Shown in pieces: positions 9,530-40,742 of a stretch of DNA of 64,000 nt. A program made the position numbers and the translations under genes. The stretch is from positions 1 through 64,000 of IMG/VR virus record IMGVR_UViG_3300023179_000027, one strand, 5' to 3'. Each line of letters opens with the position of its first letter. Position 1 is the first letter of the stretch. Under the pieces are notes generated by a model that searched no databases, was not told the DNA's origin, and saw only the letters and a list, made by a program, of their open reading frames with translations. This stretch comes from a virus.

Positions 9530-10414
9530 TTGGAATTTCCTATTCATTTAAATGAAATAGCTTATCATATAACTAATGTTTGTAATTTATCTTGTACACA
9601 TTGTATATCGTATAGTAATATAAAAGGATTTAGTGGTTATTCAAAATGGGAAGATCACTTTAGTAAAAATAAACTTTGGCCTAATTTTATTAATCCTCAT
9701 AAAGTACAAATTACAGGAGGTGAAACTTTTTTAAATCCTGATTTAATAAATTGGGTACGTGGTATACGTAATCTATGGCCCGACAAATATGTATCGGTAC
9801 TTACAAATGGTACATTATTTCATAAATCAAATGTTAAAAAAATTACAAAAGAAATTTTAAACCTTGGATTTGAAATAGAAATTAGTATTCATCATGAAAA
9901 TCATTATCTTCCTGCATATGAATCATTTTTAAATATTTTAAAAGAATCTAACATAAATCACTCTGAAGAATATACTATATTTGCGAAAAATTCTAGTAAA
10001 AAAATTGTTGAAGATTTAAGAAAATTTAGAAATAAAGATACAAATAAAGTGTTAGGTACAATTGAAAGAAAACAAATTTTTTTTCAAAATTCAATAAAAT
10101 TTTACGATAAAAATTTAATTAAAATGCATGATAATGATCCAATTAAAACACATGAAAATTGTTGCCTTAAAACATGTGGAATAATTGTAGATGGCGATTT
10201 ATTCAAATGTGTAGCAGTAGCCGTTGGCAAACAACTTAATAAACAATTTAACGTGCTAAATAAACATAATATGTTATTAAATGATTATGTTCCGTGTAGT
10301 CCAATAATTGGGAAAAATAAAGTGTATGATTTTTTAAAAAATATTAATGAACCTATAAAACAGTGTGGATTATGTGATATAGGTTTCGTTAAAGTGTATA
10401 ATCCTATTAATTAA
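9530..10414 (+). CDS. Radical-SAM protein (paralogue 1 of a tandem pair)
   Basis: 294 residues from a TTG start four bases after the previous stop; no good ribosome site, so coupling is likely. The 4Fe-4S/SAM motif is C18-x3-C22-x2-C25 (CNLSCTHC), followed by ITGGE (SAM amino-group contact) and LTNGT, the radical-SAM core order. The C-terminal third has extra Cys (CCLKTC, FKC, QCGLC) that could hold an auxiliary cluster, SPASM-like. It is about 35-40% identical by eye to the next gene. Substrate unknown. Confidence 0.88.
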   Translation: MEFPIHLNEIAYHITNVCNLSCTHCISYSNIKGFSGYSKWEDHFSKNKLWPNFINPHKVQITGGETFLNPDLINWVRGIRNLWPDKYVSVLTNGTLFHKSNVKKITKEILNLGFEIEISIHHENHYLPAYESFLNILKESNINHSEEYTIFAKNSSKKIVEDLRKFRNKDTNKVLGTIERKQIFFQNSIKFYDKNLIKMHDNDPIKTHENCCLKTCGIIVDGDLFKCVAVAVGKQLNKQFNVLNKHNMLLNDYVPCSPIIGKNKVYDFLKNINEPIKQCGLCDIGFVKVYNPIN

Positions 10415-10415
10415 T

Positions 10416-11273
10416 ATGTTTCCAATTAATGTACCTGAAGTACAATTTTATATAAACAATACATGTAATTTGTCTTGTAGTAATTGTTTAAGCTTCAATA
10501 ACTTTAATTTAAAAGGTTACTTTAAATATAAAGATTATAAAACTAAAAATGAATTATGGCCAAAATATATTTATCCTAATCGTGTATCAATTTTAGGAGG
10601 CGAACCTTATCTTAATCCTGATTTTGAAAATTGGATGATTAATGTTAGAAAATTATGGCCTACGCATAATAACATGACAATATCTACAAATGGAACTTTG
10701 TTTCATAAACTAAAGTATAAAAATTTAGCTAAAAAATCAATAGAAAATAATTATCTTTTAGAAGTAGCTGTACACTATGAAAAAGACTTTGATAACATTT
10801 ATAGAAATGTTAATGAAATATTGCAAGAACTAAAAATAAATTATCGTATCAAAGACGTTGATCCAAATGATTTATATGAGAATAAAATAGTATTTTATAG
10901 TGAATCTACTAATAAACATTTAATATATTTATATAGAAAATACTATTTTATAAAAAATTCAATAACTTCATATAATCAAAAAACTATTAAATTTCATAGT
11001 AATGATGCTAAAACAGTACATGAAAATTGCCCTGCAAAAACCTGTCATTATATTGTTCAAGGTAACTTATACAAATGTCCTGTAGTAGGTACTGGACATT
11101 TATTTGCAAAACAATATACTTTATTGGATGAGAACTTATTTGAAAAATATGAAAGTTGCGATCCTACTATTGATGAATCTTTAATAGAACATTTCCTTCG
11201 TGTGAAAATTAAAAACTATATTCCTCAGTGTAAATTATGTCCTAGTTCACATGCTTTAGAAAAAATTATATGA
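10416..11273 (+). CDS. Radical-SAM protein (paralogue 2 of a tandem pair)
   Basis: 285 residues, starting one base after the stop of its paralogue. CNLSCSNC gives C17, C21 and C24; GGEPYLNPDF and STNGTLFHK follow. The C-terminal cysteines (CPAKTC, YKC, QCKLC) match those of the upstream copy in order, which supports a real auxiliary-cluster region. Its stop overlaps the next ATG by four bases. Confidence 0.88.
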   Translation: MFPINVPEVQFYINNTCNLSCSNCLSFNNFNLKGYFKYKDYKTKNELWPKYIYPNRVSILGGEPYLNPDFENWMINVRKLWPTHNNMTISTNGTLFHKLKYKNLAKKSIENNYLLEVAVHYEKDFDNIYRNVNEILQELKINYRIKDVDPNDLYENKIVFYSESTNKHLIYLYRKYYFIKNSITSYNQKTIKFHSNDAKTVHENCPAKTCHYIVQGNLYKCPVVGTGHLFAKQYTLLDENLFEKYESCDPTIDESLIEHFLRVKIKNYIPQCKLCPSSHALEKII

Positions 11274-12403
11274 ACGGAAATGTAATATTTTTAGATTACT
11301 TTTATTTTTTGGATGAGGTAAAAGCACATGAAGTAATTGAAAATCAGCTTTTAGAAAATCTTCAAACTTTAGTGTGTTGCTTTATTATAGAAACAATGAA
11401 AGAAAATCAAATTGAAAACCTAAAAAAAAATATACAAATAATATATGAAAAAGCTTTAAAATTACACTATAATAATTTTTTTTTAGTTTTAAATTACCCA
11501 TATATAAGGTATGGACAACTCTCTAATAAGTTTGTTACTTATTATTTTAATACATTTGTGCATACTATATATAATAGTTATAAGTTATATCCATATAAAG
11601 TTAACACCAAATATAATATTAAAAATGAAAAATGTCTTATAATAGGTGGTATTCCTAATAGGATTAATAGAATAACTTTAATTAGTAAAATATTTCAACA
11701 AGGATTTTTGGATAAAATTATATATAGTTTGTTTGAACCTTACAGCGAAACAGTTTTAAAAGACTGTAAAATATACACAAAACATTTATCTGAGGCCGAA
11801 AATGAGAAATTTTTTAGAACTTGTTTTAAACACTTAGACACTGATAAGGTAGACTTTATTGGATTTGAATTAGCAGGTTACACAAAAAATATAGATTATA
11901 CAGTAAACAAAAAACATTATGAAAATAGCTGTATATCAGTGGTACCAGAAACTTTTTACAAAAGTAATGATCCAATAGATGACATTTCAGAAAAAACCTA
12001 TCGTGCGATTTATAATAAACACCCTTTTATTATAGTAGGTACTAAGGGCCTAAGGAAAACATTAGAAAGTTATGGCTTTAAAACGTTTATAGAATATTTA
12101 AAATATGATTATGATAATATAATTGACCCTTACCAAAGAATAGATGCTATAATTGAAAATTTACAATATTTTTTAAATAACAAAAATAAATATATTAATG
12201 AATTAAAAAATGATATTGAATATAATTTCAATATTTTTTGTAAGTTAATCGAAAAAAACAACGAAATTTTACAAGTTTTAGAAAAAAACGGAATTTCTAA
12301 AGTTGATATAGACAAAAATTTTAATTTTGCCAGCCCTGTAAATTTAGTTGAACAACAATATAATATTCACGAAAATTTAGACATTAAACAAAATAAAAAT
12401 TAA
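11270..12403 (+). CDS. Hypothetical protein with a C-terminal SEKTxR/PFI glycosyltransferase-like segment
   Basis: 377 residues. The N-terminal half is not recognisable. Residues about 240-300 hold ISEKTYRAIYNKHPFIIVGTKG and ESYGFKTF, then a YD...DPYQRIDAI stretch, a module also present at the end of the protein at 18494 and, from memory, in other phage proteins near glycosyltransferases. The order (E-K-T, P-F-I, G, G-x-K-T-F) recalls the nucleotide-sugar half of GT-B enzymes but no donor-site motif is certain. It converges with the next gene, overlapping by four bases at the stops. Confidence 0.6.
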   Translation: MNGNVIFLDYFYFLDEVKAHEVIENQLLENLQTLVCCFIIETMKENQIENLKKNIQIIYEKALKLHYNNFFLVLNYPYIRYGQLSNKFVTYYFNTFVHTIYNSYKLYPYKVNTKYNIKNEKCLIIGGIPNRINRITLISKIFQQGFLDKIIYSLFEPYSETVLKDCKIYTKHLSEAENEKFFRTCFKHLDTDKVDFIGFELAGYTKNIDYTVNKKHYENSCISVVPETFYKSNDPIDDISEKTYRAIYNKHPFIIVGTKGLRKTLESYGFKTFIEYLKYDYDNIIDPYQRIDAIIENLQYFLNNKNKYINELKNDIEYNFNIFCKLIEKNNEILQVLEKNGISKVDIDKNFNFASPVNLVEQQYNIHENLDIKQNKN

Positions 12404-13197
12404 ATATTTTTATGTAAATTATATTTTTTTAATTCATCAATAAAATTACCTTCGGCTTTTATAGTAATTGAACTAAATGGTATTGGGTTAAAATTACCGT
12501 GCCAATTATGATCATTAAAATATACACAATAACCTTTAAAGGGATAAGATTCTAATATTTTACCATCTTCTATGTCATACACATAAAAATCTCTATTTAG
12601 GTTAAATCTCATCCAAATAAATTCTTGAGCTTTAATTTCTCTTTCTTTCCTAGTATCTTTATCATATGGGAAATAATTAATGTCTGCGTGATAACCAATT
12701 GGCACGTAATGATCTACATAAAATAAAGTTATAGTTTGCAAATCTGTAAATGGTAATTCTTCAAAAAATTTTTTAATATTTGGAAAATTATTAATGCATG
12801 TATTCCATTTGTACGTTTGTTTATTTTCTTCATTGTTTATAACATAACGAAGTTTCATAATTGTGAATGGATCATAAGCATGAAATTTTAACTTGTAAAA
12901 TTTTGCTAATCCATTAATGTCATTTGTTTTTTCAAAATGACTTATATACTTATCTAATTGCTTGTCTGTTTTTCTTAATAATTTTGCTCGATGATGAACA
13001 TAATAAAGTGCATCCTTTTCTCTATAAAATGCATTTTTATGTTCTGGGTTATGATTTCCTGCTACCCATACACCGTCTATTGTATGTTTGTTCTCACTTG
13101 AAACCATAAAATTGAATTCATCTTCTAAATCTAATAATCCTTTAACATTAACATGTTCATCTAAGGTTATATAAGGTGTGTCTTTTCTTAAAATCAT
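12400..13197 (-). CDS. 2-oxoglutarate/Fe(II) (Asp/Asn-hydroxylase-like) protein, long type
   Basis: 265 residues. The C-terminal half has a possible double-stranded beta-helix iron site: H170-A-D172 (GYHADI) and a distal His H233 (DHNWHGN). The usual co-substrate Arg after the distal His appears as Lys (TIKAEG), whereas the paralogue at 16303-17091 has Arg there. The N-terminal 130 residues are family-specific and unknown. If active it would hydroxylate a substrate using O2 and 2-oxoglutarate. Ribosome site AAAGGA. Confidence 0.65.
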   Translation of the reverse strand: MILRKDTPYITLDEHVNVKGLLDLEDEFNFMVSSENKHTIDGVWVAGNHNPEHKNAFYREKDALYYVHHRAKLLRKTDKQLDKYISHFEKTNDINGLAKFYKLKFHAYDPFTIMKLRYVINNEENKQTYKWNTCINNFPNIKKFFEELPFTDLQTITLFYVDHYVPIGYHADINYFPYDKDTRKEREIKAQEFIWMRFNLNRDFYVYDIEDGKILESYPFKGYCVYFNDHNWHGNFNPIPFSSITIKAEGNFIDELKKYNLHKNI

Positions 13198-13228: not shown

Positions 13229-13801
13229 ATGAGTGAATATACATATATTTTAAATTGTAATAATTTCCTTAATTGTGATCAGTTATTAGAAGAAATAAAA
13301 CATAAAGAAGGGGTACTAAGGAATGCAAAAACTCCATATGGAAATCCAAAGTTGTTTAATCATCCTATACACGGACCAAAAATAATTGAATTGGGAAATT
13401 ATTGGAAAGATGCTGGATATTTAGATAATGATTCTGTTGAGTATATTAATTATTTTCCTAAACAACATTTTGACATATTATACGTTGAAAAATTAAATGA
13501 ATTATTAAAAACTAATCCAGTAAGAGTATGGATTAGTTCAATTAAACCAGGAAAATGTGTGCCATGGCATTACGATATTGAAGAGAAGGAAGATGAATAT
13601 CTAAAATTAGGTAAAGTTGCACGTTATAGTATTTTTATAGATAAACCAACTGTTGGTAAAATTTTTATACTACAACACGATGTGTTTCATATGATTGAAC
13701 AAGGTAATATTTATAAATGGAAAAATTGGAAAGATTATCATTTAGGATTTAATTGTGGTAACTCAACTAAATATTTGTTACACTATATTGGGATAGAATG
13801 A
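13229..13801 (+). CDS. 2OG/Fe(II) oxygenase-like protein, small HxD...HxG type
   Basis: 190 residues. Iron-site candidates: H114-Y-D116 (PWHYDIEE) and H171 (DYHLGFN). Between them lie the shared family blocks ARYSIFIDKPTVGKIF and GNIYKW. It belongs to the same family as the three minus-strand genes that follow (13802-15665) although it is on the opposite strand. It has its own exact late promoter and no ribosome site. It ends base-to-base against the convergent next gene with no terminator. Confidence 0.75.
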   Translation: MSEYTYILNCNNFLNCDQLLEEIKHKEGVLRNAKTPYGNPKLFNHPIHGPKIIELGNYWKDAGYLDNDSVEYINYFPKQHFDILYVEKLNELLKTNPVRVWISSIKPGKCVPWHYDIEEKEDEYLKLGKVARYSIFIDKPTVGKIFILQHDVFHMIEQGNIYKWKNWKDYHLGFNCGNSTKYLLHYIGIE

Positions 13802-14446
13802 TTAAATAATAGTTCCATCTTTTAGTTTTAGTAAAACAGAATCATTATCTGTTTGCCAAACATATTCATACTCCAGTGGTTCTTTAAGTCTTAAACCTCT
13901 ATATATAAAAAGAGCTTTGTATGTAAATCCTGCATTCGCCCCTGCGTGTTCTGCCATATGATCATCCCATTTATATAAATTTCCTTCCTCCTGCATATAC
14001 ATAGCTACATTTTCAACCATAAAAATATGCCCTATTTCTGGTTTACCTAAATGTAATGAGTATCTTTCAAGATTTCCAAACTTCAATAACTCAGATTCTC
14101 TGTTATCAAAATCTCTATGCCTAGTTGCTGTGATACCAGGTCTTACACGATTTATCCAACATTGAGTACATACGGTACCTAATAATTTATCCAAAAAATA
14201 AACTATATCTTCTGAAAAATGTGTATTAGGATATAGTGTAAAATTATCCCAAATTGGATCTTTTAATCCAGCATCCTTTACTTTTTTAACAAATTCTAAT
14301 GTTTCTTTGGAATTATCATATAGAGGTTTACCATCCTCGTCGTACATTCTTATTATATCTCTATGACCAAGTGTTAAATCATTTACTGACTTCATTATGT
14401 CAGACAAATTAAATTTTTTACTTATATTTTCTAGGAAAACAGCCAT
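13802..14446 (-). CDS. 2OG/Fe(II) oxygenase-like protein, tandem paralogue 3
   Basis: 214 residues. Iron-site candidates H110-R-D112 (TRHRDFDNRE) and H167 (EHAGANAG). Shared blocks: CWINRVRPG before the HxD, GKPEIGHIFMV and GNLYKWDD after it. It is the last gene of a three-gene minus-strand operon of paralogues. Its start lies inside the end of the upstream gene (16-base overlap), consistent with coupled translation. Substrate unknown. Confidence 0.75.
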   Translation of the reverse strand: MAVFLENISKKFNLSDIMKSVNDLTLGHRDIIRMYDEDGKPLYDNSKETLEFVKKVKDAGLKDPIWDNFTLYPNTHFSEDIVYFLDKLLGTVCTQCWINRVRPGITATRHRDFDNRESELLKFGNLERYSLHLGKPEIGHIFMVENVAMYMQEEGNLYKWDDHMAEHAGANAGFTYKALFIYRGLRLKEPLEYEYVWQTDNDSVLLKLKDGTII

Positions 14447-15048
14447 TCATGATCCTTCCAAAGTATTATACAACCATTTTCATTGTTTTCGGTCCACCAG
14501 TCATATTCAATTTTTCTGTTGTCATGGAATTTTATTCCTTTATAAGACAATAAATATTTTTTACATAATCCTGCGTTTATACCGGCATGCCATGCATCAG
14601 GATCATCCCAGATATATGTATTTCCATGTTTTTCCATGTAGTGGCATGTATTATCAACAAAAAATGCATGTCCAAATTTGGGTTCACCTAAATGAATATG
14701 AAATCTTTTATAAATACCTTCTGATTTAAATTTTTTTTCTCTAGGTTCAATATCTTGGTGAGGCGGGGCTACATTCCCAACATCAATTTCGCTAATATTA
14801 AAACCACAGCATATAGTTCCGAAAATCTCATCTAATTCAAAAATTAATTCTTTTGGAACATGAATATGTGCCCAATAACTTACACCAATCCAAGCAGGAT
14901 CCTCATATCCTGCTTTTATTAACTTAGAATGACTATCTCTTTCATTTGGATGATTAATAATTAAGTTTTCTATCCATCCATCTCTTAAATTGTTTAAATT
15001 GATATACTTATCTACAATAGAGGCATAGTTACCAACAAAAGTACTCAT
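14431..15048 (-). CDS. 2OG/Fe(II) oxygenase-like protein, tandem paralogue 2
   Basis: 205 residues. H97-Q-D99 (PHQDIEPRE) and H154 (AWHAGINAG) are the candidate iron ligands; GEPKFGHAFFVDN and GNTYIWDD are the shared blocks. Middle copy of the minus-strand paralogue operon, overlapping its upstream copy by four bases. A TATAAATA on the opposite strand inside this gene (14709) has no start codon behind it. Confidence 0.75.
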   Translation of the reverse strand: MSTFVGNYASIVDKYINLNNLRDGWIENLIINHPNERDSHSKLIKAGYEDPAWIGVSYWAHIHVPKELIFELDEIFGTICCGFNISEIDVGNVAPPHQDIEPREKKFKSEGIYKRFHIHLGEPKFGHAFFVDNTCHYMEKHGNTYIWDDPDAWHAGINAGLCKKYLLSYKGIKFHDNRKIEYDWWTENNENGCIILWKDHEWLFS

Positions 15049-15665
15049 AATTCATAATCCCAATTAATACAATATTCTTTACAATCTCCTAATGTTTCGT
15101 CAATAAAATCCCACCTATAATTTATGTCTATTGGTTCAAATAATTCTACACCGTTATAAATTAAATTAAATTTTGGCTTAAAGCCAACATTTCCTGCACT
15201 ATGTAATTGATTGGGAGTCCATTTATAACAATCACCATGGTTTTGCATATAATTAACTTTATTATCAATAAAAAATACATGCCCAAAGCTTGGGTCACCA
15301 ATATGAATATTATAAGTAACAAGTTTTCCTAGTTTTTTTATTTTAACGAATCTAGGGTCATGATCTCTATGTGGCGGGAAAACTTTACCAACTGGTATTT
15401 CATTTATCCATGCAGCTATTACTTTTGTTTTAAAGACATTATCTAACTCATATATTAATTCTTTAGAAAAATGTACATTAGGGAAATAGTTTATTCCTAT
15501 CCATTTAAATCCAACGTAACCTGCTTCAAATAACATATCACTCTGTTCGTCCCCTATTATTCTTTTTGATTCATCAAGAATAAGTTCATCTCTAATGCCG
15601 TTAATTAATTTTGATATGTCAATATATTTGTCTATAATATGTGACAAATTACCAAAATATTCCAT
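15045..15665 (-). CDS. 2OG/Fe(II) oxygenase-like protein, tandem paralogue 1
   Basis: 206 residues. H99-R-D101 (PPHRDHDPR) and H155 (LHSAGNVGF), with WINEIPVG, GDPSFGHVFFIDN and GDCYKW shared with the two downstream copies. First gene of the operon, with a good AAGGGAG ribosome site ten bases upstream. The 26-base gap to the divergent gene contains the plus-strand late promoter. Confidence 0.77.
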   Translation of the reverse strand: MEYFGNLSHIIDKYIDISKLINGIRDELILDESKRIIGDEQSDMLFEAGYVGFKWIGINYFPNVHFSKELIYELDNVFKTKVIAAWINEIPVGKVFPPHRDHDPRFVKIKKLGKLVTYNIHIGDPSFGHVFFIDNKVNYMQNHGDCYKWTPNQLHSAGNVGFKPKFNLIYNGVELFEPIDINYRWDFIDETLGDCKEYCINWDYEL

Positions 15666-15691: not shown

Positions 15692-16306
15692 ATGATTTCA
15701 AAGATATTTAGTTCACTTACATATGATTTTTATAAAAGCAACCCAATTACAAAGTTAAATTTCATAAAAAATATAAACGGTTTTCTACCTGATAATATCA
15801 TAGATCAATTTGAAAATCATAACTGGAATCTTGTTCCTACGAGAAACTTTGATACTATTAAAAATTTTGTTGAAAGTAATAATAAAGATTTTGTAAATCT
15901 ATCACATTTTAATCACTTTGTTTCTACAAATATATGCCAATGGAAAATTACAAATTATTCTACTATAATAGGTAATGATGATTTCATAAATTTTTTAAAT
16001 TCAAAATTTATAAAATATAAAGTATGGGTAACTCAAATACCTCCAGGATGTTGTATACCAAATCATATTGATACTGTCGATGAATTTATTGAATCTAATA
16101 ATATAGACAAATCTAATATAATGAAAATAAAACGTTATCTTATTTTACCAGAAGATATTAAACCATGGCATCATTTATGGTATGGAAATACAATTTTATC
16201 CACTGGATTAAAGGGAGATATGTATGAATTTGATTTTTGGTTAGCACATGGCGGTGGAAATTTAGGACCAACCAACAAATATACTATTCAAATAATGGCA
16301 ATTTAA
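15692..16306 (+). CDS. Asp/Asn-hydroxylase-like 2OG/Fe(II) protein
   Basis: 204 residues. WVTQIPPGCCIPNHIDTVDE supplies H125-I-D127; the distal His is H186 in WLAHGGGNLGPTNKYTIQI. It differs from the neighbouring paralogue set in its N-terminal half, so it is a separate lineage. It is alone in its transcription unit, with its own late promoter, and converges with the next gene (four-base overlap of stops). Confidence 0.7.
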   Translation: MISKIFSSLTYDFYKSNPITKLNFIKNINGFLPDNIIDQFENHNWNLVPTRNFDTIKNFVESNNKDFVNLSHFNHFVSTNICQWKITNYSTIIGNDDFINFLNSKFIKYKVWVTQIPPGCCIPNHIDTVDEFIESNNIDKSNIMKIKRYLILPEDIKPWHHLWYGNTILSTGLKGDMYEFDFWLAHGGGNLGPTNKYTIQIMAI

Positions 16307-17091
16307 TAATTTTCTAAATGGTCTATGCCTAATTTTTGTCTAAATTCTTCTGTAAAAACACCATCTATTCTAATGCCATAAGTCTGTACAGGACTTGAAC
16401 TTCCGCTATGCCAATCTAAATCGTTAAACCAACATGCTCTTGAATTTATTTTAAGTCTTTCGTTTGTGTCTGGGTCCCATAAAAATAATCCTTTATTGTT
16501 GTCAGGGGTAATGTGTATAAATTCATGTCTGTGTGGGGTGTAAGAAAATGCATCACCTTGATATAAGTCTCTATGTATGCCAGGTCTTGTGTCATGTTCT
16601 TGTTTAAAGAAAATAATTCGTCCTAAATGTTTGAAAATATTGTCTTTGACAAGATTTTCTAACCATATTTTAAGATTAGGAAAATATACTATATCTGGAG
16701 TATAATCTTTTTCTTCAAATCTACTATCCCATCCACCTGATTCAGTCTTTAAAAAAACAAACTGGTAGGCATCATATGCACCTAATACTAGTTTTAAATA
16801 TAATATAAACTGGTCACGGTTTTTGTGCAATCCACCTAATTTTTCTCCTTGAATTTTTATTGGATCATTATTTGGTAATTTGTTATATTCCTCTATCGCA
16901 TAATAAGTCCATTTACGATATCCGTAGTCAGGGCTAGTCTCAGCTCCCGCACATACATACAAATTTCCTTCTTTTTTGTGCTTTGATAATACTAATCCAG
17001 CACAAATTTCAGGATGCAATTTTAAAAAACCTTCTATATCGATTAGGTTATCTAAATCGTAATATGGTTTGCCATTTATACCTTTTATCAT
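16303..17091 (-). CDS. 2-oxoglutarate/Fe(II) (Asp/Asn-hydroxylase-like) protein, long type
   Basis: 262 residues, paralogue of the gene at 12400-13197. Candidate iron site H173-R-D175 (GIHRDL) and H228 (DLDWHSG), with R241 (YGIRIDG) in the co-substrate position, so this copy looks complete. Shared architecture: about 130 family-specific residues, an IVYFPNL/NFPNI-type segment, then the beta-helix. Last of three coupled minus-strand genes (four-base overlap with the next upstream). Confidence 0.72.
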   Translation of the reverse strand: MIKGINGKPYYDLDNLIDIEGFLKLHPEICAGLVLSKHKKEGNLYVCAGAETSPDYGYRKWTYYAIEEYNKLPNNDPIKIQGEKLGGLHKNRDQFILYLKLVLGAYDAYQFVFLKTESGGWDSRFEEKDYTPDIVYFPNLKIWLENLVKDNIFKHLGRIIFFKQEHDTRPGIHRDLYQGDAFSYTPHRHEFIHITPDNNKGLFLWDPDTNERLKINSRACWFNDLDWHSGSSSPVQTYGIRIDGVFTEEFRQKLGIDHLENY

Positions 17092-17771
17092 AAAATAACA
17101 TAATCCTTGTTAATTAATTTAAGTTTATCTATTATATCATTTAAAGTATGTTGTTCACATTCTATTAAAATTTCTCCATTTACAAAATCAAAAAAACCAA
17201 TTTCTTTCTGTTTAATTTTATGTGATATTATAGGAGAAATTTCATTGTCAAAATCATATCTAAATTTGTCATAAACTTTAACAAATTTTATTTTTTTAAG
17301 TTTAAAGTTAATATTTGTGTTTTTAATTAACCTTACCCTTACTACTAACTGAATTCTATCAAAGGATCCAAAATTTGCAGCAACGTGTTTATGACTTGCG
17401 TCCATATAATAAACAAAATTATCACTAATTGTTTTATATAAAGTCTGTGTGTCGAGGTCTATTAAGTAACTTTGGTCATTTCCTATTATATTAATATGTA
17501 ATCTGTCATCAACATCCGTATGTGAACGATAACAGGTTCCAGGTTGTAATTTAATAAGTCTTGCCTCACCAATAGGGTAGGTGTTTGATAACATATTTAA
17601 AAGTTCTTCAAATCCTGTATTTTTCCATAAATCCTTCATTATATATGGATCATATAGCCAATTACCTATAGGAGAATTTAATTGGCATCTATTTTTTTCA
17701 TCCCATTTTATATTATTTAACAATGGAATTAAATCATTTACGTTATAATATAAATTTGTTTTAGTTAGCAT
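17088..17771 (-). CDS. Asp/Asn beta-hydroxylase-like 2OG/Fe(II) protein
   Basis: 227 residues. Residues 60-150 show the clearest hydroxylase pattern of this operon: LIKLQPGTCYRSHTDVDDRLH (H84-T-D86), then SHKHVAANFGSFDRIQLVVRV with H129 and R139. An 80-residue C-terminal extension is unrecognised. It overlaps the upstream kinase-like gene by 11 bases. Confidence 0.75.
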   Translation of the reverse strand: MLTKTNLYYNVNDLIPLLNNIKWDEKNRCQLNSPIGNWLYDPYIMKDLWKNTGFEELLNMLSNTYPIGEARLIKLQPGTCYRSHTDVDDRLHINIIGNDQSYLIDLDTQTLYKTISDNFVYYMDASHKHVAANFGSFDRIQLVVRVRLIKNTNINFKLKKIKFVKVYDKFRYDFDNEISPIISHKIKQKEIGFFDFVNGEILIECEQHTLNDIIDKLKLINKDYVIL

Positions 17772-18453
17772 AAATTTTTATAGCGGAATTTATAAAATCA
17801 TTTGGATAATTAGAGCGGAATGATTCAAAACATAATATTTGTAGTTTTTTATAACATATTTTATCTTCCCATTTTATATTAAGTGCTGCCATAATATCTT
17901 TCATTTTTTCTTGTCTTTCTAAACTAATGTGACTTCTGTGCTCCTCCAAAGTAACAATAGGTTCATTAGATTCATATGTAAAAAAATAATTTATGCTCTT
18001 TAATTTATCATTAACTATAAAATAACTGCTAGGGTGCAGACTAAATTTATACCATCCTAAGTCTCTATAAAGTTGTAATATATGAAGCATTTGATCCTGC
18101 CAATCAGGAACTATTTTATTATAGTTTGTTTCCTGACAATTGGCTTTTTCCCAAAAATCGTCTCCTTGAATTTCAAAATAAATTTTCTGTTGTAAATCAT
18201 CTATTTTTATAATTTTTGGAATTAAATTTGAATTAATTTTCTCTAATTTTCTTAAAAAATATACCTCACGATCAAATTTTTTACGCATCAGAGAGGGATC
18301 TATAACTTGGTTTCGTCCTTTATGGTATTCTGTATCGTTGTGAAACCATTTTAAAAATATAGTTTTTTCTCTGTTTATTAAACTTGTATAAACCAAATTA
18401 TTTCTAACTTTTCCTAAATTTGGCACATTATTGTAATAGTATTCAAATTCCAT
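17761..18453 (-). CDS. Kinase-like fold protein with degenerate active site
   Basis: 230 residues. It has an N-lobe-like pattern: KKFDREVYFLRKLEKI with a helix-C Glu, a hinge-like KIYFEIQGDDFWE, then LYRDLGWYKFSLHPSSYFIVNDKLKSINYFFTYE where a kinase would carry H-x-D...N and the metal-binding D-x-D/G. Here His is followed by Pro-Ser and no second Asp is clear. I infer a protein/aminoglycoside-kinase-like pseudoenzyme or a divergent kinase. First gene of its operon, behind a late promoter four bases upstream. Confidence 0.5.
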   Translation of the reverse strand: MEFEYYYNNVPNLGKVRNNLVYTSLINREKTIFLKWFHNDTEYHKGRNQVIDPSLMRKKFDREVYFLRKLEKINSNLIPKIIKIDDLQQKIYFEIQGDDFWEKANCQETNYNKIVPDWQDQMLHILQLYRDLGWYKFSLHPSSYFIVNDKLKSINYFFTYESNEPIVTLEEHRSHISLERQEKMKDIMAALNIKWEDKICYKKLQILCFESFRSNYPNDFINSAIKIYAN

Positions 18454-18465: not shown

Positions 18466-18493
18466 ATATTATTGTTTTAGTAAATAATTGTAC

Positions 18494-26623: not shown

Positions 26624-26681
26624 ATTGATATTTACATTATATTTTTTTTACAATAAATATGTTTGCGGAGATAAAACAGTT

Positions 26682-32795: not shown

Positions 32796-33392
32796 ATGTT
32801 TGAATATATAACAAATTTTGAAAAAATTATTGCTGATTTTTATAATGCACCTTACGCAGTAGCCACAGATTGTTGTACTCACGCTATTGAATTATGTTTA
32901 CGGTTGCAAAAAATAAAACAAACCTCTGTTCCTAAGCATACATATTTATCGATACCTATGACTTTAGATAAATTAAACATATATTATGAATGGAGAGATG
33001 ATTATTGGCAAAATTTTTATTATTTTTCTAATACCAATATTATTGATGCAGCAGTATATTGGAAAAAAAATGGATATATTAAAGACACATTTATGTGCTT
33101 AAGTTTTCAACATAAGAAGCATTTAAGTTTGGGTCGAGGAGGTTGCATACTCTTAAGCAATGAACAAGATTATTTAGAATTAATTAAAATGTCATATGAC
33201 GGAAGAAGTCGTGATAAGCCTTGGGCAGAACAAAATGTTACAACAATTGGATACCATTATTACATGACACCTGAAACAGCCTTACTTGGTATTGATAAAT
33301 TTTACCAAATAACAGACATAGTACCAAAATTTTGGTCGTATAATGACTATCCTGATTTATCAAAATTAAAGGTATTTTCACATGTTAAGTAA
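32796..33392 (+). CDS. Half-length DegT/DnrJ/EryC1-type (PLP) aminotransferase-like protein
   Basis: 198 residues against about 370 for full enzymes. Family order is kept: TDCCTHAIELCLRL (cofactor phosphate region), CLSFQHKKHLSLGRGGCIL with the Schiff-base Lys at position 108, and a YHYYMTPETALLG segment where the family has G-Y-N-x-R-M. The C-terminal domain is missing. It may act on a nucleotide sugar or be a binding remnant. A second copy lies at 41901. Four bases separate an imperfect late box (ATTAAATA) from its ATG. Confidence 0.72.
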   Translation: MFEYITNFEKIIADFYNAPYAVATDCCTHAIELCLRLQKIKQTSVPKHTYLSIPMTLDKLNIYYEWRDDYWQNFYYFSNTNIIDAAVYWKKNGYIKDTFMCLSFQHKKHLSLGRGGCILLSNEQDYLELIKMSYDGRSRDKPWAEQNVTTIGYHYYMTPETALLGIDKFYQITDIVPKFWSYNDYPDLSKLKVFSHVK

Positions 33393-34365
33393 AAATGAAT
33401 GGGATCCACTTAAAAAGGTTATTGTTGGTATAGCAGACAATGCTCAAATACCTAAGGATGATATAAGTTTACGTCTAGTAAATTATGCTGATAAAGATGA
33501 TAGCTATATTGTTAAAACAGGATATTATCCTCAACAAGTGATTGATGAAGCAAATGAAGATTTAGAAAAACTAGTGGACGCTCTTAAAAAAGAAAATGTT
33601 GAGGTGTGTAGACCTAATTCTACAGTTGCAAACAATTATTATAATTATTGTCCTAGAGATAGTGTATTAGTTTATGATGATTTAATACTTGCGACTCCAC
33701 AGCCATTACGTGCTAGACAAAATGAGTATATATCAATGGATAGCATATTTACTAGTTATAACAATGTTCGTTATGTTAAAAAAAATGCAAAGAAGTTAGA
33801 TAGTTTATATAATAAAAATTGTATCGGTAATAAAGACATACTCGCACTTAATGAAACCGAACCATGCTTTGATGCTGCAAATATAATTAGAGATAATGAT
33901 AATTTATATTATTTAGTGAGCAACAGTGGGAATGAAGCAGGTGCTGATTACCTACAAGAGTTAGTAGGTAGTAACAAAAAGGTTTACAAGATAAAAGGAA
34001 TATATGCATATATGCATATTGACAGTACCATTACATTATTACGTGAAGGGTTAATGTTATTAAATCCAAGTAGAGTAAAAAGTTTAGAACAATTACCTAA
34101 ACCGTTACAATCATGGGATGTAATTTGGTGTCCTACCCCACAGTTTGAATATCATTATCCACAATACTGTCATGCTAGTGTATGGATAAATGTTAATTTA
34201 TTAAGTATTAATCCCAATTTGGTTGTCATACATGAAAATGAAACAAATTTACGGAAAGAGTTAAATAAGCACAATATTGATTGTGTAATGTTACCAGGTA
34301 GGCATCAAAGAACTTTGGGTGGTGGATTTCATTGTGTTACATTAGATTTAGAGAGAAAACATTAA
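33382..34365 (+). CDS. Glycine-amidinotransferase-like enzyme (GATM superfamily)
   Basis: 327 residues. It opens with NEWDPLKKVIVG, the usual family start, and keeps all main active-site residues of L-arginine:glycine amidinotransferase: D93 (CPRDSV), D164 (EPCFDAAN), H212 and D214 (MHIDST), and the nucleophile C318 (GGGFHCVTLD). It moves an amidino group from arginine to an amine, giving a guanidino product. The natural acceptor here is unknown. Overlaps the aminotransferase-like gene by 11 bases, which suggests a linked amine-then-amidination step. Ends base-to-base with the convergent gene. Confidence 0.88.
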   Translation: MLSKNEWDPLKKVIVGIADNAQIPKDDISLRLVNYADKDDSYIVKTGYYPQQVIDEANEDLEKLVDALKKENVEVCRPNSTVANNYYNYCPRDSVLVYDDLILATPQPLRARQNEYISMDSIFTSYNNVRYVKKNAKKLDSLYNKNCIGNKDILALNETEPCFDAANIIRDNDNLYYLVSNSGNEAGADYLQELVGSNKKVYKIKGIYAYMHIDSTITLLREGLMLLNPSRVKSLEQLPKPLQSWDVIWCPTPQFEYHYPQYCHASVWINVNLLSINPNLVVIHENETNLRKELNKHNIDCVMLPGRHQRTLGGGFHCVTLDLERKH

Positions 34366-36189
34366 TTAAATCACTGTAATTTTGTTTTTTAACAATCCTA
34401 GTCTTCTAAATCTGTAATAATTCCAAGTTAATGATTTTGTTTTATGTAACTCTCTTGGAGCTACTTTAATATCAATATTTTTATCATATACTTCTGTCAA
34501 TGTGAAATCTGTATTAATAATTACAGGAAAGTCTAGTTTAGGATCATAAATGTAATATTTTTGCAATTCATATATATGGTCAGGGGTTTTAAAAAATTCA
34601 TTAGCAACATCTTTAGCCAAATCAAATATTAATTCTTTATTATCATATAAAAATTCATATGTTGAAGTATGTAAGGCATGTCCTCCACCTTGTATCTGTT
34701 TTCCATCTTTTTTAATTATACTGCCTGAACTCAAATACAATGCAGTTGCTTCTTTGAGTAAGTTAAATTGGTCCTTTATAAAGCTATTTTCTAATTTTGT
34801 AAATAATTTGTCATAAAATTGTCTATACGATACGTTGTGTTTTTCTCTCATATAACGTGCAAATACCTGTGTATAACCTGTAATATGAAATTGTATTATC
34901 ATCCATCCATACATGTATGCTTCAATAAAATCATCTGTTGTCATTGTACTAGTTTGATTTATCAAATTTATTTTTTCTTCTACCTCAGGATCCTCAGGAC
35001 ATTTATCTACATACATTGGCATATAATTTTTAAAATTTGTAGTAACACTTTTAATTCCATATTTAAGTTTTGAATTTAATGAATTTAACTCACTATTTTC
35101 TAGTAATTGTCCAAACCATTGTTCAATATTTTGGTGTTGACCCATTTCTAATATATCATTATATCCCTGTTTCCATGAATCCAGTGTTTCAAGTGGCATA
35201 CCCAATATTAATTCAGTATAGGTTATAACATCATATTTTTCACTTAATTTCATTAAAGTTTTAATGTTATTAATTTCCATGTTGGTTCTTTTGATTGCTT
35301 CTAATGTAGATTCATTCATACTTTGCATACTAATAGTAAGTCCCCTACTATAGGGACCTATTATTTTTGCTATTTCAAAATTTAATTCAGTAGAATTTTT
35401 TGCTGACTGCAAGTTTATACTGTCAACTGTTTTGCTTCTATCCGCTACATCCCTTAAAATTAGTGCAATTTGCCTATCACGTTCTTTAAAAATTCCGAAA
35501 TTTGCATCAGCACATATTATGTATCCAATTGGCTTATTTACAATCCATTCTAATTCATTTTTAATTTTTTCAATATCAAATTTTTTTACTTTACTATAAG
35601 TTACGCCTCCCCAATCACAAAACGTACAAGCATAAGGACATCCTCTATTAGTCTCAAATGTAAAGCTCCATAATGCTTTAGGATTTTCATCTATTATTTT
35701 GTCAAACACCCCTGTTGTATATGGACTGGGGATATCTAAATTATCTAATCTTTTCTTGTCATAAAATGTTTTTAATTTTTTATCTGATATGGTATCACGT
35801 AATATTTCTAAAAAGTTTTCTTCACCTTCTGCCATTACTATGCTGTCAATAAATTCATAGTTTAATAGTTTTCCACTAGCTTGCGGTCCACCAAAAATGA
35901 TTCTACAATTAGGAAATTTTTCCTTAATCATTTTTGCCATTTTTAAATTATATCTTTCATTCCAAATATAAGTGCTAAAACCACAAAGTGTAGGATTTTC
36001 TACTTTATTTAAAACTTCTATTGGATTATCTCTTGCATAAAATAAGTCTTTTAGGATAAAATTATCTTTAATGTCATCAAACTGATTAGCGTAAGACCAT
36101 ATGCATCCAGAACTATATGGTAACCAATAAGTATCTTCATTGTCGATTGTTACATTATGTTGTGGCTGAAAAAGATATAAATTTTTCAT
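34366..36189 (-). CDS. B12-binding-type radical-SAM protein, long
   Basis: 607 residues. Residues 1-150 resemble a cobalamin-binding domain (CGFSTYIWN, RIIFGGPQASG, IVMAEGEENF). C184-x3-C188-x2-C191 in NRGCPYACTFCDWGG is the radical-SAM motif with the CDWGG seen in this subclass; ILGMPLET follows in the barrel. About 200 C-terminal residues form a family-specific domain. Last gene of a three-gene operon, but with its own exact late promoter six bases before the ATG. Substrate unknown. Confidence 0.87.
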   Translation of the reverse strand: MKNLYLFQPQHNVTIDNEDTYWLPYSSGCIWSYANQFDDIKDNFILKDLFYARDNPIEVLNKVENPTLCGFSTYIWNERYNLKMAKMIKEKFPNCRIIFGGPQASGKLLNYEFIDSIVMAEGEENFLEILRDTISDKKLKTFYDKKRLDNLDIPSPYTTGVFDKIIDENPKALWSFTFETNRGCPYACTFCDWGGVTYSKVKKFDIEKIKNELEWIVNKPIGYIICADANFGIFKERDRQIALILRDVADRSKTVDSINLQSAKNSTELNFEIAKIIGPYSRGLTISMQSMNESTLEAIKRTNMEINNIKTLMKLSEKYDVITYTELILGMPLETLDSWKQGYNDILEMGQHQNIEQWFGQLLENSELNSLNSKLKYGIKSVTTNFKNYMPMYVDKCPEDPEVEEKINLINQTSTMTTDDFIEAYMYGWMIIQFHITGYTQVFARYMREKHNVSYRQFYDKLFTKLENSFIKDQFNLLKEATALYLSSGSIIKKDGKQIQGGGHALHTSTYEFLYDNKELIFDLAKDVANEFFKTPDHIYELQKYYIYDPKLDFPVIINTDFTLTEVYDKNIDIKVAPRELHKTKSLTWNYYRFRRLGLLKNKITVI

Positions 36190-36194: not shown

Positions 36195-37154
36195 TTATTT
36201 ATATTTGGGGATTTTACTATCCGCTGAACTAACGCATCTTTGAGTAATGCATTTTGTTGGGTGTTGAAATAAAATAAAATCTTTTAAAGTTCCCATTGGG
36301 ATGTCCTTACAACTATAACTACGTCTTACCTCATTCAATCTTATTACCAAACTTTGATACCCACTATTACAATTCCAATCTTTAAATTGATTAAAATTAA
36401 ATGCATTAAATCGTTCAGCCTGATCTATATAATAAACGTTATGTTGTTCATCATATAATTTTACTTGTAAAAGTTCTTTATCATTAATTTTTTGAGGTAA
36501 GCCTGATTTCATAATATTTATCATATCCTCTGTATACTCTGTAATTACATTACTAGCTGTTAAATCACTCTGTGGCTTAAGAGTAACGTTTATTCCTTGT
36601 TCACTAAATCTTAAACATCTTTCATAAAGTTCATAAAACAATTTTGGTACCATTACCTGATTTACAGTAACAAATACATTATTATTCATTAACCATAATA
36701 TTTTTTCTATAAATTCTGACTCAATTGCAAATTCATGATGAAAGCTTGCTGTCAAACTACGTCTAATAGAATTTTTAGTTAATTCAACATATTTGTTCCA
36801 ATACTGTAATCCTGGACTTAAGTTTGTTGTCATATGTATACTATCTCCATCTATTTCTTTTAACAAATAAAACAAATGTTTATAGGCTGTAGGTTCACCA
36901 CCGCTGAATGACCAATGGAATTTTGTAAATTTATTTTCTTTTGCCAAATGTTTAATTTTAGCTATAGTGTTTATGTATAAGTCTAATTCTTGATAATCGG
37001 GAATATCGGCATGTGCATATGGCCAACAGTAGGAACAATTATAATTACAAAATCGTCCTAATATCCAACTTATTGTAAATAAATCTGTATCAAGTAAAGT
37101 TTCTTGCCCAAATTTTATAATTTTATTAAATGGGATTTTCGTAAAATCTGTCAT
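36195..37154 (-). CDS. Radical-SAM protein with C-terminal Cys cluster (SPASM-like)
   Basis: 319 residues. C36-x3-C40-x2-C43 (CNYNCSYC), HWSFSGGEPTAY, MTTN. The C-terminal end carries CNSGYQSLVIRLNEVRRSYSC and CITQRCVSSAD, an auxiliary-cluster region like that of the gene at 23289. Its start lies 29 bases inside the upstream glycosyltransferase-like gene. Confidence 0.87.
   Translation of the reverse strand: MTDFTKIPFNKIIKFGQETLLDTDLFTISWILGRFCNYNCSYCWPYAHADIPDYQELDLYINTIAKIKHLAKENKFTKFHWSFSGGEPTAYKHLFYLLKEIDGDSIHMTTNLSPGLQYWNKYVELTKNSIRRSLTASFHHEFAIESEFIEKILWLMNNNVFVTVNQVMVPKLFYELYERCLRFSEQGINVTLKPQSDLTASNVITEYTEDMINIMKSGLPQKINDKELLQVKLYDEQHNVYYIDQAERFNAFNFNQFKDWNCNSGYQSLVIRLNEVRRSYSCKDIPMGTLKDFILFQHPTKCITQRCVSSADSKIPKYK
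36196..36203 (-). promoter_or_regulatory. T4-type late promoter TATAAATA (minus strand), leaderless configuration
   Basis: Exact octamer on the minus strand, overlapping the last codons of the upstream radical-SAM gene. Six bases lie between it and the ATG (A at 36189), so the predicted mRNA begins about one base before the start codon. Confidence 0.72.
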
Positions 37155-38688
37155 ATTGTTCTTTTAACCAATCATAGTCATTAATTAACATCAATTTTTC
37201 TTTATTATTTTTATTGGCTAAACCGTAAGACCTACCGTATAAAGCACCATCAATACAATATTTGCCAAATGGTTTATCAAGTCCTTTTGTACACCAAACG
37301 TGTAAACGTTCTGCTGTGTCTAAGGTATTTTGGTTATTTATTTGCTCACTTGCCAATTTACTACATTCTCTAAAAGCACTTCTCCATGTATTAAAGGAAT
37401 TAGTATTAAATTTAGTTATATTACTTAATTCATTTACTCGCTCATAAATTATTCCTAAACTTGTGGACATGTCAGGATCAGTTTTTTTTAACCTTGCTGT
37501 AATAGTCCTAGGTAAAAGTTTAACTGCACCATATCCATATTCTAGATCATTAATGCAATTTTTAGCTCTCCACACTCTTATTTTAGGTTGGTCATAAAAC
37601 GGCACTTTATAATCAAAATTAAATGAATCTAGTATTTCTGCATCTCCATCCACTACATAAAAATAATCTGTTTTACATAACATAGCAGCTTTTATATGAG
37701 CATTGTGTATGCCTTTTACTTTTTGAATACGCAGTGCTCTAGGAAATCTTTTTGTAAGATGTTTATAATTTTCATCAGCAAAGGTTTCATCGTAGTCTAT
37801 GAAAACAATGTCGTAAGGTATGTCATCAGGACAACGTAATATAGGTTTTACTTGGTGTTTATAATTAAAACTTTCATTTACAGAATAAACATCATCTACT
37901 ATATCTTTATCCAATAGTATGTTTATTTTATTACCTAATTCATTACATAATTCTAATAGATTAGTAGAATAATTTTTCATGTGAAATAATGAATTTAAAT
38001 AATCAAAATCGTGTAAATTTTTTAAATCAAAATTTATTAGGCTTTTATAAACTCCCAATCGAGCTCCATAAATTGCAAATAATCCATTTTCTACATCCGC
38101 TCCAATATGCATCCAGTTATATAATCTATCAAAATTTCTCCAGTCTAGGCTATTCAGGTCTGAAATAAGTTTTCCATTCTCAAGCAACAACTTGACTCCC
38201 TCACGAAAACCTGCACGCCATGCTTGTAAAGGACTTGAATTAATAATAATATCACTGGCAATATGGTTTAACTGTATATAATTACTTAAATCAAAATCTA
38301 CTAATGTACTTAAATCATTACTATTTTCATGTGTTTTCATCGTCCTAATAATTTTAAGAGGCCAACATTTTATACCACCGTTACCATACTGTTGTCCATT
38401 AATGATATTGTGTGCAGTAAAACTTACAACTTTATCATTATAATTGTTTACAAGATATTTTTGTTTATAAAAATCATCTCTAACAAAATTATCTCCATCT
38501 ACTATAATGACGTGGCTATCGCTAGGAAATAAGGCAGCAACTTTTTTATGTGCGGCGTCACTGCCTTTTATACCATGTACTCTTTTGGCCTTTGGACATA
38601 CTAATAATAAATTTTCAAAGTTTTTTTCACAGTTAGGTTCATCATAACTTAAAAATACAGTCTGATAATTATTGGGATCTAAAAACAT
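37126..38688 (-). CDS. Internally duplicated glycosyltransferase-like protein (two GT-A-like modules)
   Basis: 520 residues made of two related halves. Module 1 (about residues 10-190): VFLSYDEPNCEKNFENLL, KGSDAAHKK, IIVDGDNF, YGNGGIKCWP. Module 2 (about 290-500): VFIDYDETFADENYKHL, KGIHNAHIKA, YVVDGDAEI, YGYGAVKLLP. Each has a D-G-D motif where GT-A enzymes bind the metal and sugar nucleotide, and each ends in a W-R-(A/S)-(A/G)-F-R-E block. Similar proteins occur in cyanophages. Probably transfers sugar to a surface or virion target. First gene of the operon, behind an exact late promoter. Confidence 0.72.
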   Translation of the reverse strand: MFLDPNNYQTVFLSYDEPNCEKNFENLLLVCPKAKRVHGIKGSDAAHKKVAALFPSDSHVIIVDGDNFVRDDFYKQKYLVNNYNDKVVSFTAHNIINGQQYGNGGIKCWPLKIIRTMKTHENSNDLSTLVDFDLSNYIQLNHIASDIIINSSPLQAWRAGFREGVKLLLENGKLISDLNSLDWRNFDRLYNWMHIGADVENGLFAIYGARLGVYKSLINFDLKNLHDFDYLNSLFHMKNYSTNLLELCNELGNKINILLDKDIVDDVYSVNESFNYKHQVKPILRCPDDIPYDIVFIDYDETFADENYKHLTKRFPRALRIQKVKGIHNAHIKAAMLCKTDYFYVVDGDAEILDSFNFDYKVPFYDQPKIRVWRAKNCINDLEYGYGAVKLLPRTITARLKKTDPDMSTSLGIIYERVNELSNITKFNTNSFNTWRSAFRECSKLASEQINNQNTLDTAERLHVWCTKGLDKPFGKYCIDGALYGRSYGLANKNNKEKLMLINDYDWLKEQYDRFYENPI

Positions 38689-39431: not shown

Positions 39432-39506
39432 GCTGATGTAGATCAGTGGTAGATCGCTTTCTTGGTAAGAAAGAAGTCGTGAGTTCAAATCTCGCCATCA
39501 GCACCA
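39432..39506 (+). tRNA. tRNA-Thr (GGT)
   Basis: Acceptor GCTGATG / CATCAGC, anticodon stem CTTTC/GAAAG around GGT, CCA encoded. Three bases after tRNA-Gln, so co-transcribed. Confidence 0.92.
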
Positions 39507-39518
39507 AACAAATTAACC

Positions 39519-40742
39519 ATGTATAATAGATTTGACATTATAGACTTTCAAGTGATTTATGATAAATGGATGGCTAATACCAACCCATTTAATGTTTACA
39601 TACACAGCCCCTTTTGTCAGTCAATTTGTAAGTTTTGTATCTATAAAGGGTTGAAGTACAACAATACTTTATTTGAACAATACTACGATCATTACCTACC
39701 TAAGGTAGTTGATATGTACAGTAACATTTTAGATACTAAAACTAATTTAATTACTAGTTGGTTTTTTGGTGGTGGTACACCGTCATTAATGACAGCTAGT
39801 ATGGCAGATATGTTATTTGATTCTTTACCAAACTTTGCTAATCATCCTAGTGAAAAGGTTTTTGAAATACACCCTGGTGCATACACTGTTGAACTTTTAG
39901 ATGTGCTTAAAAAATACAATTTTACAACTGTAATCATTTGCCAACAAACATTTGATATAGGCACATTAAAACGTCAAAATAGAACTGTATCAGGTATTGA
40001 TACATGTAAAAAGTTGTTTAAGGAGTGCAGAAAACGTGGATTTAAAATAGGATTAGACTTAATAGCTTTTTTAAATCAGCAACCGACTGACATACAAATC
40101 CTACAAAATGATTTAGATATTGTCAGTCAACTTAAACCTGATGAAATTAGTGTACAAACTTTGTATCAGCGTAAAGATTTGACAAGAATGGTTTTGGATT
40201 CTATCTTTAATCATAAACTCATCAAACACTATACTCCTGAATGGGCTGATAAATTGTCAAAAGATGATTTACTTGTTATCAATCAACAATTAAAATGTTT
40301 TAGGTTATTTAATAATAAGACACCTAAAAACAATGAATTTTATAGTTTTACTGGTAATATGGATCCGAATTGGCAAATTTTAAACAATCAATTACAAACA
40401 CTAGCTATTGGTTCTTATAAGAACCAATTGACACAAACACATTCAAACATTAGTGGTTTTAATTACTTTGAGACAAATATTAATAATATTGATCCAGTAT
40501 TTAAGTTTGTCACAAATGACCTAGAGCAAGAAAAGTTATATGTACAAAATGTTCTTAAAGAAGCAAACATTGTTAAATCTGTAGACGATATTGTTTATAG
40601 TCATAGTTTTATCTATGCAAGAGAGATACCTATTATGTTAGATTTTAGTGTACGTAATCTAAATGAACAAGAAGTAGATAATATTATAAAAAAGATACAT
40701 AATAAAAAAAGAATGATGTTAAAAAAATTTAAGGAGAATTAA
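39519..40742 (+). CDS. HemN/HemW-like radical-SAM protein
   Basis: 407 residues. YIHSPFCQSICKFCIYKG contains C33-x3-C37-x2-C40 in the HemN-type context, followed by SWFFGGGTPSLM, typical of coproporphyrinogen dehydrogenase/HemW relatives, and EIHPGAYT. The extra Cys of true HemN (C-x3-C-x2-C-x-C) is absent. The C-terminal half does not match HemW closely, so porphyrin chemistry should not be assumed. It starts 12 bases after tRNA-Thr with no ribosome site. Confidence 0.82.
   Translation: MYNRFDIIDFQVIYDKWMANTNPFNVYIHSPFCQSICKFCIYKGLKYNNTLFEQYYDHYLPKVVDMYSNILDTKTNLITSWFFGGGTPSLMTASMADMLFDSLPNFANHPSEKVFEIHPGAYTVELLDVLKKYNFTTVIICQQTFDIGTLKRQNRTVSGIDTCKKLFKECRKRGFKIGLDLIAFLNQQPTDIQILQNDLDIVSQLKPDEISVQTLYQRKDLTRMVLDSIFNHKLIKHYTPEWADKLSKDDLLVINQQLKCFRLFNNKTPKNNEFYSFTGNMDPNWQILNNQLQTLAIGSYKNQLTQTHSNISGFNYFETNINNIDPVFKFVTNDLEQEKLYVQNVLKEANIVKSVDDIVYSHSFIYAREIPIMLDFSVRNLNEQEVDNIIKKIHNKKRMMLKKFKEN

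Follow-up and report, generated by a model that had tools for sequence, protein, structure and literature searches.

Clusters of radical S-adenosylmethionine (SAM) genes have been described in the Campylobacter phages CP220 and CPt10, which encode 11 and 12 radical-SAM proteins, respectively, and carry interchangeable clusters in which a putative glycine amidinotransferase accompanies five radical-SAM genes; the authors proposed that these boost the metabolism of the host (Timms et al. 2010, PMC2853527). Here we describe an enzyme-rich island in the virus record IMGVR_UViG_3300023179_000027 (130,630 bases), the analysed stretch (the window) being bases 1-64,000 of that record, with genes named by their first coordinate. 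A 29-kb block of about 35 tightly packed enzyme genes (9530-38688; 99.6% coding, largest gap ≤34 bp) holds 10 of the record's 11 radical-SAM genes and at least nine iron oxygenases (Table 1). Our preliminary description, made from the sequence alone, knew of no described phage system of this composition, a claim that proved too strong because the CP220/CPt10 clusters had been reported in 2010 (PMC2853527). These and related Campylobacter phages were the only cases found in the openly accessible literature on phage aminocyclitol or radical-SAM/2-oxoglutarate (2OG) glycan pathways.

Comparison with described and related systems

CP220 and CPt10 (Firehammervirus) resemble the window's phage in being T4-like and in combining many radical-SAM genes with a homologue of the amidinotransferase 33382 (25% identity). 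Their clusters adjoin PAAR and baseplate lysozyme genes, whilst the window has a PAAR-like gene 6 kb before the island, and in CP220 two nucleotide-diphospho-sugar-transferase-like genes lie beside the cluster. They differ in that oxygenases are unmentioned in the published account (PMC2853527) and no half-size DegT or 2OG partner was matched; matches to the window's radical-SAM families were distant, with 24165, 21240, 29745 and 17088 unmatched among the best hits, and each swapped cluster has five radical-SAM genes whereas the window has ten in one block. With many radical-SAM genes and an amidinotransferase near PAAR in a T4-like phage, the window fits a CP220/CPt10-type cluster, a class that is descriptive only.

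The cultured cyanophage S-SCSM2R (PQ898602, SSCSM2R_301-310) carries a half-size DegT, a radical-SAM, a 2OG and an amidinotransferase gene within a few kb, accompanied by several annotated glycosyltransferases, one of family 25. Its amidinotransferase is 55% identical to 33382 and its cluster includes a homologue of 9530 (1.6e-29), but there is a single radical-SAM gene and the core block described below is missing. Among other cultured phages, relatives of the twitch radical-SAM proteins were found only in two Vibrio phages and one marine fragment, the Vibrio phage region containing five such genes in 29 kb without an amidinotransferase match. Contigs from metagenome-assembled genomes (MAGs) of Bdellovibrionota cluster the core families as the window does, yet these contigs are bacterial and have few oxygenases. 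New features here appear to be the many oxygenases, a core that stays fixed while other parts are exchanged, the related blocks in bacteria, and the trio of StrB-like amidinotransferase, DegT and 2OG enzymes, which points to carbohydrate.

A conserved core and its enzyme families

Searches with 24165 returned 37 IMG/VR contigs, some of them near-duplicates, of which one encodes a protein identical to that of the window and 36 encode homologues at 55-73% identity. In about 20 contigs carrying all six core genes, the order 36195>29745>24165>23289>21240>17088, on strands +++--+, is nearly always kept, and the window has the identical order in reverse complement. The radical-SAM and oxygenase genes between core members differ in number and kind from contig to contig. 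Random gene content among relatives, with no conserved pairs, had been named in the preliminary description as counting against an organised island; this is not what is seen, as core order and strands recur in about 20 other contigs. The Bdellovibrionota contigs carry related blocks with homologues of 36195, 30842, 24165, 29745 and 37126, and a tree built from 24165 proteins places phage and bacterial sequences on opposite sides, with one exception on a 3.5-kb contig that was binned to an archaeon and is likely viral. This separation suggests one old exchange between the phage and bacterial lineages. Two further MAG contigs, L069 (Rickettsiales MED657) and L083 (Gammaproteobacteria MED685), have about ten radical-SAM genes per 18-21 kb block and could be bacterial or mis-binned phage.

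All eleven proteins first picked out by the C-x3-C-x2-C motif correspond to open reading frames at the positions in Table 1 and match Pfam Radical_SAM (PF04055; 9e-14 to 6e-4), and thus belong to the radical-SAM superfamily by motif and profile together. Nine pass the PF04055 cutoff (10416 and 30842 fall below it), and nine have a GGE, GGGTP or equivalent motif. Because no further C-x3-C-x2-C protein occurs elsewhere in the 130-kb record, radical-SAM genes are concentrated in the island. Ten form paralogous pairs (9530/10416, 21240/24165, 23289/36195, 25553/30842 and 19777/34366), leaving 39519 unpaired; the pair 19777/34366 is of the B12-binding type, with B12-binding Pfam matches below cutoff in both. 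Genes 21240 and 24165 are members of NF033640 (N_Twi_rSAM), scoring 311 and 389 bits against a curated cutoff of 170. A viperin identity was ruled out (53 bits against a cutoff of 180).

Thirteen further proteins had been proposed as oxygenases from an HxD pattern. The bare motif was discarded as evidence, as the loose H.D...H...[RK] pattern also turns up in 33% of shuffled versions of these proteins and in 9 of 51 control proteins, and a double-stranded beta-helix oxygenase was instead recognized by homology or fold together with a conserved HxD...H triad. Nine proteins are firmly of the 2OG/Asp-hydroxylase type, 12400 and 16303 are probable members from their predicted fold, and 27437 and 28615 (no Pfam match) retain the motif only. 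Direct Pfam Asp_Arg_Hydrox matches were obtained for 17088, 26598 and 27957, whilst iterated profile searches united 13229, 13802, 14431, 15045, 15692 and 30342 with 17088 in one family, in which H114, D116 and H171 are invariant (40 aligned sequences). AlphaFold2 models were built for two families. The model of 13229 (pLDDT 95.5) matched AspH (2e-5) and other 2OG enzymes in Foldseek; that of the 12400/16303 family, in which H173-x-D175 and H228 are invariant, had a pLDDT of 78, with the HxD loop below 50, and its matches were likewise 2OG enzymes. Solved structures matched by the models include the protein hydroxylases AspH and P4H as well as 7v4f and an L-proline hydroxylase. PHROGs gave almost no matches for the oxygenases.

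The interleaved enzymes fared unevenly. Pfam and PDB profiles confirmed the epimerase 31864, the half-size DegT aminotransferase 32796 and the amidinotransferase 33382, whilst the methyltransferase 29745 and GNAT 29165 are assigned by eye or from weak matches. The glycosyltransferase-like genes proposed within 9.5-38.7 kb (11270, 18488 and 37126) were supported by neither Pfam nor PDB profiles; genuine GT2 domains (Pfam) lie outside the island at 43131 and 44477. PDB profile searches found nothing for the families of 29745, 37126 and 18488, nor did 29745 or 37126 match Pfam. The DegT proteins 32796 and 41901 (198 and 210 residues) match just the N-terminal part of the 360-position profile and so fall short of the full fold with its C-terminal domain; the SFQHKKHLSLGRGG region with a candidate lysine for pyridoxal phosphate (PLP) is present by sequence.

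Among PDB profiles, the best match of 33382 is inosamine-phosphate amidinotransferase (1bwd, 5e-63), with weaker matches to HsvA (5e-36) and the glycine enzyme AGAT (6e-36). Its alignment to 1bwd spans residues 4-325 and retains the FDAAN, H-DST and GGGFHC regions, so that closeness over the full length, together with the pentein Asp/His/Cys regions, identifies it as a predicted StrB-type inosamine-phosphate amidinotransferase. In 37 other contigs with this gene (some near-duplicates), a 32796-type half-size DegT lies nearby in all 37 and a 30342-type oxygenase in about 30, the oxygenase frequently carrying a fused domain from the 11270/18488 family; in several phages the fused relatives are of 11270. 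Further enzymes encoded in sister clusters are UDP-glucose dehydrogenase and a NodU/CmcH-type carbamoyltransferase. One sister cluster, on contig L109, shares the 31864-29745-36195-37126 block and encodes a sugar-phosphate cyclase closest to PDB 4p53 (2.4e-78), an entry named 'Cyclase' that we take to be ValA, the validamycin 2-epi-5-epi-valiolone synthase. L109 also encodes a kinase-like protein, an NTP transferase and a RuBisCO-like protein, the last (9694-10830, minus strand) standing beside the ValA-like cyclase on a phage contig. On contigs L117 (13463-18331) and L123 (15082-20772), sister clusters end in proteins of 1,600-1,900 residues with repeats of about 100 residues related to the putatively GT-A-like 37126, in which the VDGD motif is apparently lost.

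Table 1. Island and flanking genes, with positions in the window.
Position	Strand	Assignment	Evidence or remark
8883..9263	+	IscU/NifU_N iron-sulfur scaffold protein, left island edge	Pfam NifU_N 1.5e-55
9530..10414	+	Radical SAM, paralogue of 10416	Pfam 2.2e-10; BLAST to 10416 1e-63
10416..11273	+	Radical SAM	Fer4_12 just above cutoff; Radical_SAM 6e-4; CxxxCxxC, GGE motifs
11270..12403	+	Putative glycosyltransferase-like, family of 18488	No convincing Pfam/PDB match
12400..13197	-	Probable 2OG oxygenase, 16303 family	Invariant HxD/H, model
13229..13801	+	2OG/Asp-hydroxylase-type oxygenase	Alignment; AlphaFold2 pLDDT 95.5; Foldseek AspH 2e-5
13802..14446	-	2OG oxygenase, 13229 family	Profile search, alignment
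14431..15048	-	2OG oxygenase, 13229 family	Profile search, alignment
15045..15665	-	2OG oxygenase, 13229 family	Profile search, alignment
15692..16306	+	2OG oxygenase, 13229 family	Profile search, alignment
16303..17091	-	Probable 2OG oxygenase	Invariant HxD/H, model
17088..17771	-	Core 2OG oxygenase	Asp_Arg_Hydrox 1e-5; conserved position in relatives
17761..18453	-	Kinase-like (weak), common accessory gene	Weak protein-kinase profile matches
18488..19780	+	Putative glycosyltransferase-like, family of 11270	Shared family
19777..21243	+	B12-binding radical SAM	Radical_SAM 4e-10; B12-binding 3e-5 (below cutoff)
21240..22505	+	Core N-terminal twitch radical SAM	NF033640 1.3e-92; conserved order
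22498..23301	+	No assigned function; homologue in few relatives	
23289..24182	+	Core radical SAM	Pfam 9e-14; conserved order
24165..25550	-	Core N-terminal twitch radical SAM	NF033640 2.7e-116; invariant Cys
25553..26623	-	Accessory radical SAM	Pfam 5e-8
26598..27455	+	Asp_Arg_Hydrox oxygenase	Pfam 3.4e-11
27437..28048	+	HxD protein	Motif only
27957..28622	+	Asp_Arg_Hydrox oxygenase	Pfam 1.4e-13
28615..29214	+	HxD protein	Motif only
29165..29752	-	GNAT-like (weak), common accessory gene	FeeM 0.042 (below cutoff)
29745..30341	-	Core methyltransferase-like protein	67% mean column identity, 17 sequences; conserved order
30342..30872	-	2OG oxygenase, amidinotransferase-associated type	Profile family; L109 homologue Asp_Arg_Hydrox 0.001
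30842..31885	-	Accessory radical SAM, member of bacterial block	Pfam 5.5e-6 (below cutoff)
31864..32772	-	NDP-sugar epimerase/dehydratase	Pfam Epimerase 1e-39
32796..33392	+	Half-size DegT PLP aminotransferase, large domain only	Pfam 4e-14
33382..34365	+	Amidinotransferase, closest to StrB1	PDB 1bwd 5e-63
34366..36189	-	B12-binding radical SAM	Pfam 6e-11; B12-binding 1.5e-4 (below cutoff)
36195..37154	-	Core radical SAM	Pfam 7e-11; conserved order
37126..38688	-	Two-domain protein, VDGD motif, putatively GT-A-like	Single-domain homologues in bacterial block
39519..40742	+	HemN-like radical SAM, probably outside core	Pfam 2.4e-9; NF006064 90 bits (below cutoff)
41901..42533	+	Second half-size DegT aminotransferase, outside the 9530-40742 span	Pfam 5e-15
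42530..43129	+	PglD-like hexapeptide acyltransferase	PglD_N 1.4e-6, Hexapep 2e-7
43131..44480	+	Methyltransferase-GT2 fusion	Methyltransf_24 2.5e-13, GT2 1.6e-9
44477..45259	+	GT2 glycosyltransferase	Pfam 1e-5

Function of the island

An organized phage modification or biosynthetic island, as initially proposed, is supported by the enzyme families, the near-complete coding density and the six-gene core in about 20 contigs. The product had been left open between a glycan, a virion protein and an exported metabolite; a glycan is the choice that the sister clusters now favour, with the product unproven. Because the partner genes are sugar and cyclitol enzymes, a carbohydrate is the best-supported substrate, and we hold with about even confidence that the island encodes a phage pathway for carbohydrate tailoring, the likeliest target being a glycan at the surface of the infected cell or on the virion. 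In such a pathway the core of four radical-SAM enzymes (36195, 24165, 23289 and 21240) with 29745 and 17088 would perform the shared steps, and the exchangeable radical-SAM, B12-radical-SAM and 2OG enzymes might contribute lineage-specific oxidations, epimerizations, hydroxylations or C-methylations. The half-size aminotransferase 32796 could place an amine onto a keto-sugar or cyclitol, and 33382 would then transfer an amidino group from arginine onto the aminated product, so that a sugar bearing a guanidino group results. Sugar supply and attachment may fall to the epimerase 31864 together with the DegT/PglD-like/GT2 module at 41.9-45.3 kb, whilst IscU at 8883 could help load iron-sulfur clusters. 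The purpose might be receptor alteration, masking or evasion of defences.

Two known sugar pathways offer partial parallels. The StrB1-type amidinotransferase of the window and the ValA-like cyclase of L109 recall streptomycin- and validamycin-type pathways, but there is no evidence for an antibiotic from the island, and of the aminocyclitol gene set (cyclitol synthase, aminotransferase and amidinotransferase) the cyclase, present in L109, was not found in the window's possibly incomplete record. The adjacent DegT and PglD-like genes at 41901/42530 recall the bacillosamine pair PglE (DegT) and PglD, but the window's DegT is half-size and no dehydratase or oligosaccharyltransferase was identified beside them.

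Several points weigh against carbohydrate tailoring. No island enzyme has a demonstrated substrate, no glycosyltransferase was confirmed inside 9.5-38.7 kb by Pfam or PDB profiles, and the bacterial blocks lie outside any obvious O-antigen locus. The sister-cluster cyclase and carbamoyltransferase were not found in the window's record, a weak negative given that the record is probably a genome fragment. Peptides are frequent substrates of twitch/SPASM radical-SAM and AspH-type enzymes, so that a protein target is compatible as well.

Since enzymes of the twitch radical-SAM and AspH-like kinds frequently modify proteins, the main competing explanation is modification of a virion (tail or baseplate) or host protein, in which radical-SAM enzymes would crosslink or epimerize, oxygenases would hydroxylate and glycosyltransferases may glycosylate the hydroxylated sites. 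The nearest solved folds of the oxygenases include AspH and P4H, two core enzymes have N-terminal SPASM/twitch domains, and the island begins about 6 kb past the PAAR-like gene, with a large structural-looking protein also upstream, much as the CP220/CPt10 clusters follow PAAR/baseplate lysozyme genes. Set against this, the partner genes (amidinotransferase, DegT, epimerase, UDP-glucose dehydrogenase, carbamoyltransferase and cyclase) encode enzymes that work on small molecules or sugars, and the 2OG fold includes hydroxylases of free metabolites, 7v4f and an L-proline hydroxylase being among the same matches; we therefore judge a protein target rather unlikely. A loose store of host-derived genes that boosts host metabolism during infection, the CP220/CPt10 authors' own reading (PMC2853527), would agree with the highly variable accessory content, but appears improbable beside the fixed core order and strands in about 20 contigs, the tight amidinotransferase-DegT-oxygenase association and the related bacterial block, all of which argue for one pathway.

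Maturation of a phage-encoded precursor into a ribosomally synthesized and post-translationally modified peptide (RiPP) would suit the many radical-SAM/SPASM, B12-radical-SAM and 2OG enzymes that work in RiPP pathways, and weak NCBIfam cross-matches to peptide maturases were seen; these scored far below cutoffs, however, and because 9530-38688 leaves no space between genes for a precursor (short open reading frames overlapping genes were not searched), we rejected this very unlikely reading. DNA hypermodification, in which 2OG and radical-SAM enzymes also occur, is the least probable role for the island and was likewise rejected, as the QueE/QueD/FolE-like genes of this genome are 60-70 kb distant and none of the genes recognized in the island is of a DNA-binding, base-specific or nucleotide-kinase type.

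Returning to carbohydrate tailoring, we tentatively raise, as a possibility of lower probability, a modular streptidine-like phage chemistry, in which a fixed radical-SAM/2OG core and swappable enzymes would build glycans that bear guanidino, carbamoyl or cyclitol groups, each lineage placing its own variant on virions or infected cells. If the carbohydrate reading is right, some phages would go beyond glucosylating DNA or acetylating O-antigen and carry out radical and oxygenase chemistry in several steps, built from a constant core and interchangeable parts and on a par with the tailoring of antibiotics, adding a new layer to the contest over cell-surface receptors. Such phages would also offer a large unexplored source of C-H-functionalizing enzymes for sugars; the radical-SAM clusters of Campylobacter phages, so far unexplained, would gain an explanation open to testing, and one would have to ask what the related blocks in Bdellovibrionota produce.

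Genome setting and further genes

Ribonucleotide reductase and DNA polymerase place the window's phage near large T4-like phages. Because the nearest DNA polymerases belong to Sinorhizobium phage Phosso, Agrobacterium phage Atu_ph07 and relatives of 350-490 kb, the record is probably a fragment of a larger genome. Of the 31-kb span originally delimited (9530-40742), the dense block to 38688 stands, whilst the HemN-like 39519 beyond it is a stray among tRNA genes; the window has 23 of these between 39354 and 53495, covering most amino acids. In the relatives L026 and L028 an IscU/NifU_N gene likewise marks the island edge, and 17 relatives have a best-hit homologue of the accessory gene 17761. 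Ahead of the island lie the PAAR-like protein (3097-3378, read by eye) and a 1,152-residue structural-looking protein (3369-6827) with a C-terminal NCDCWLI, which had no match among 50,697 phage records. Elsewhere in the record, QueE-like, QueD-like and FolE-like genes (106946-107830, 108171-108641 and 111495-112175), recognized by sequence, suggest 7-deazaguanine DNA modification. Between them, at 108918-110282, two tandem sulfotransferase-like genes carry an SSPRSGS motif.

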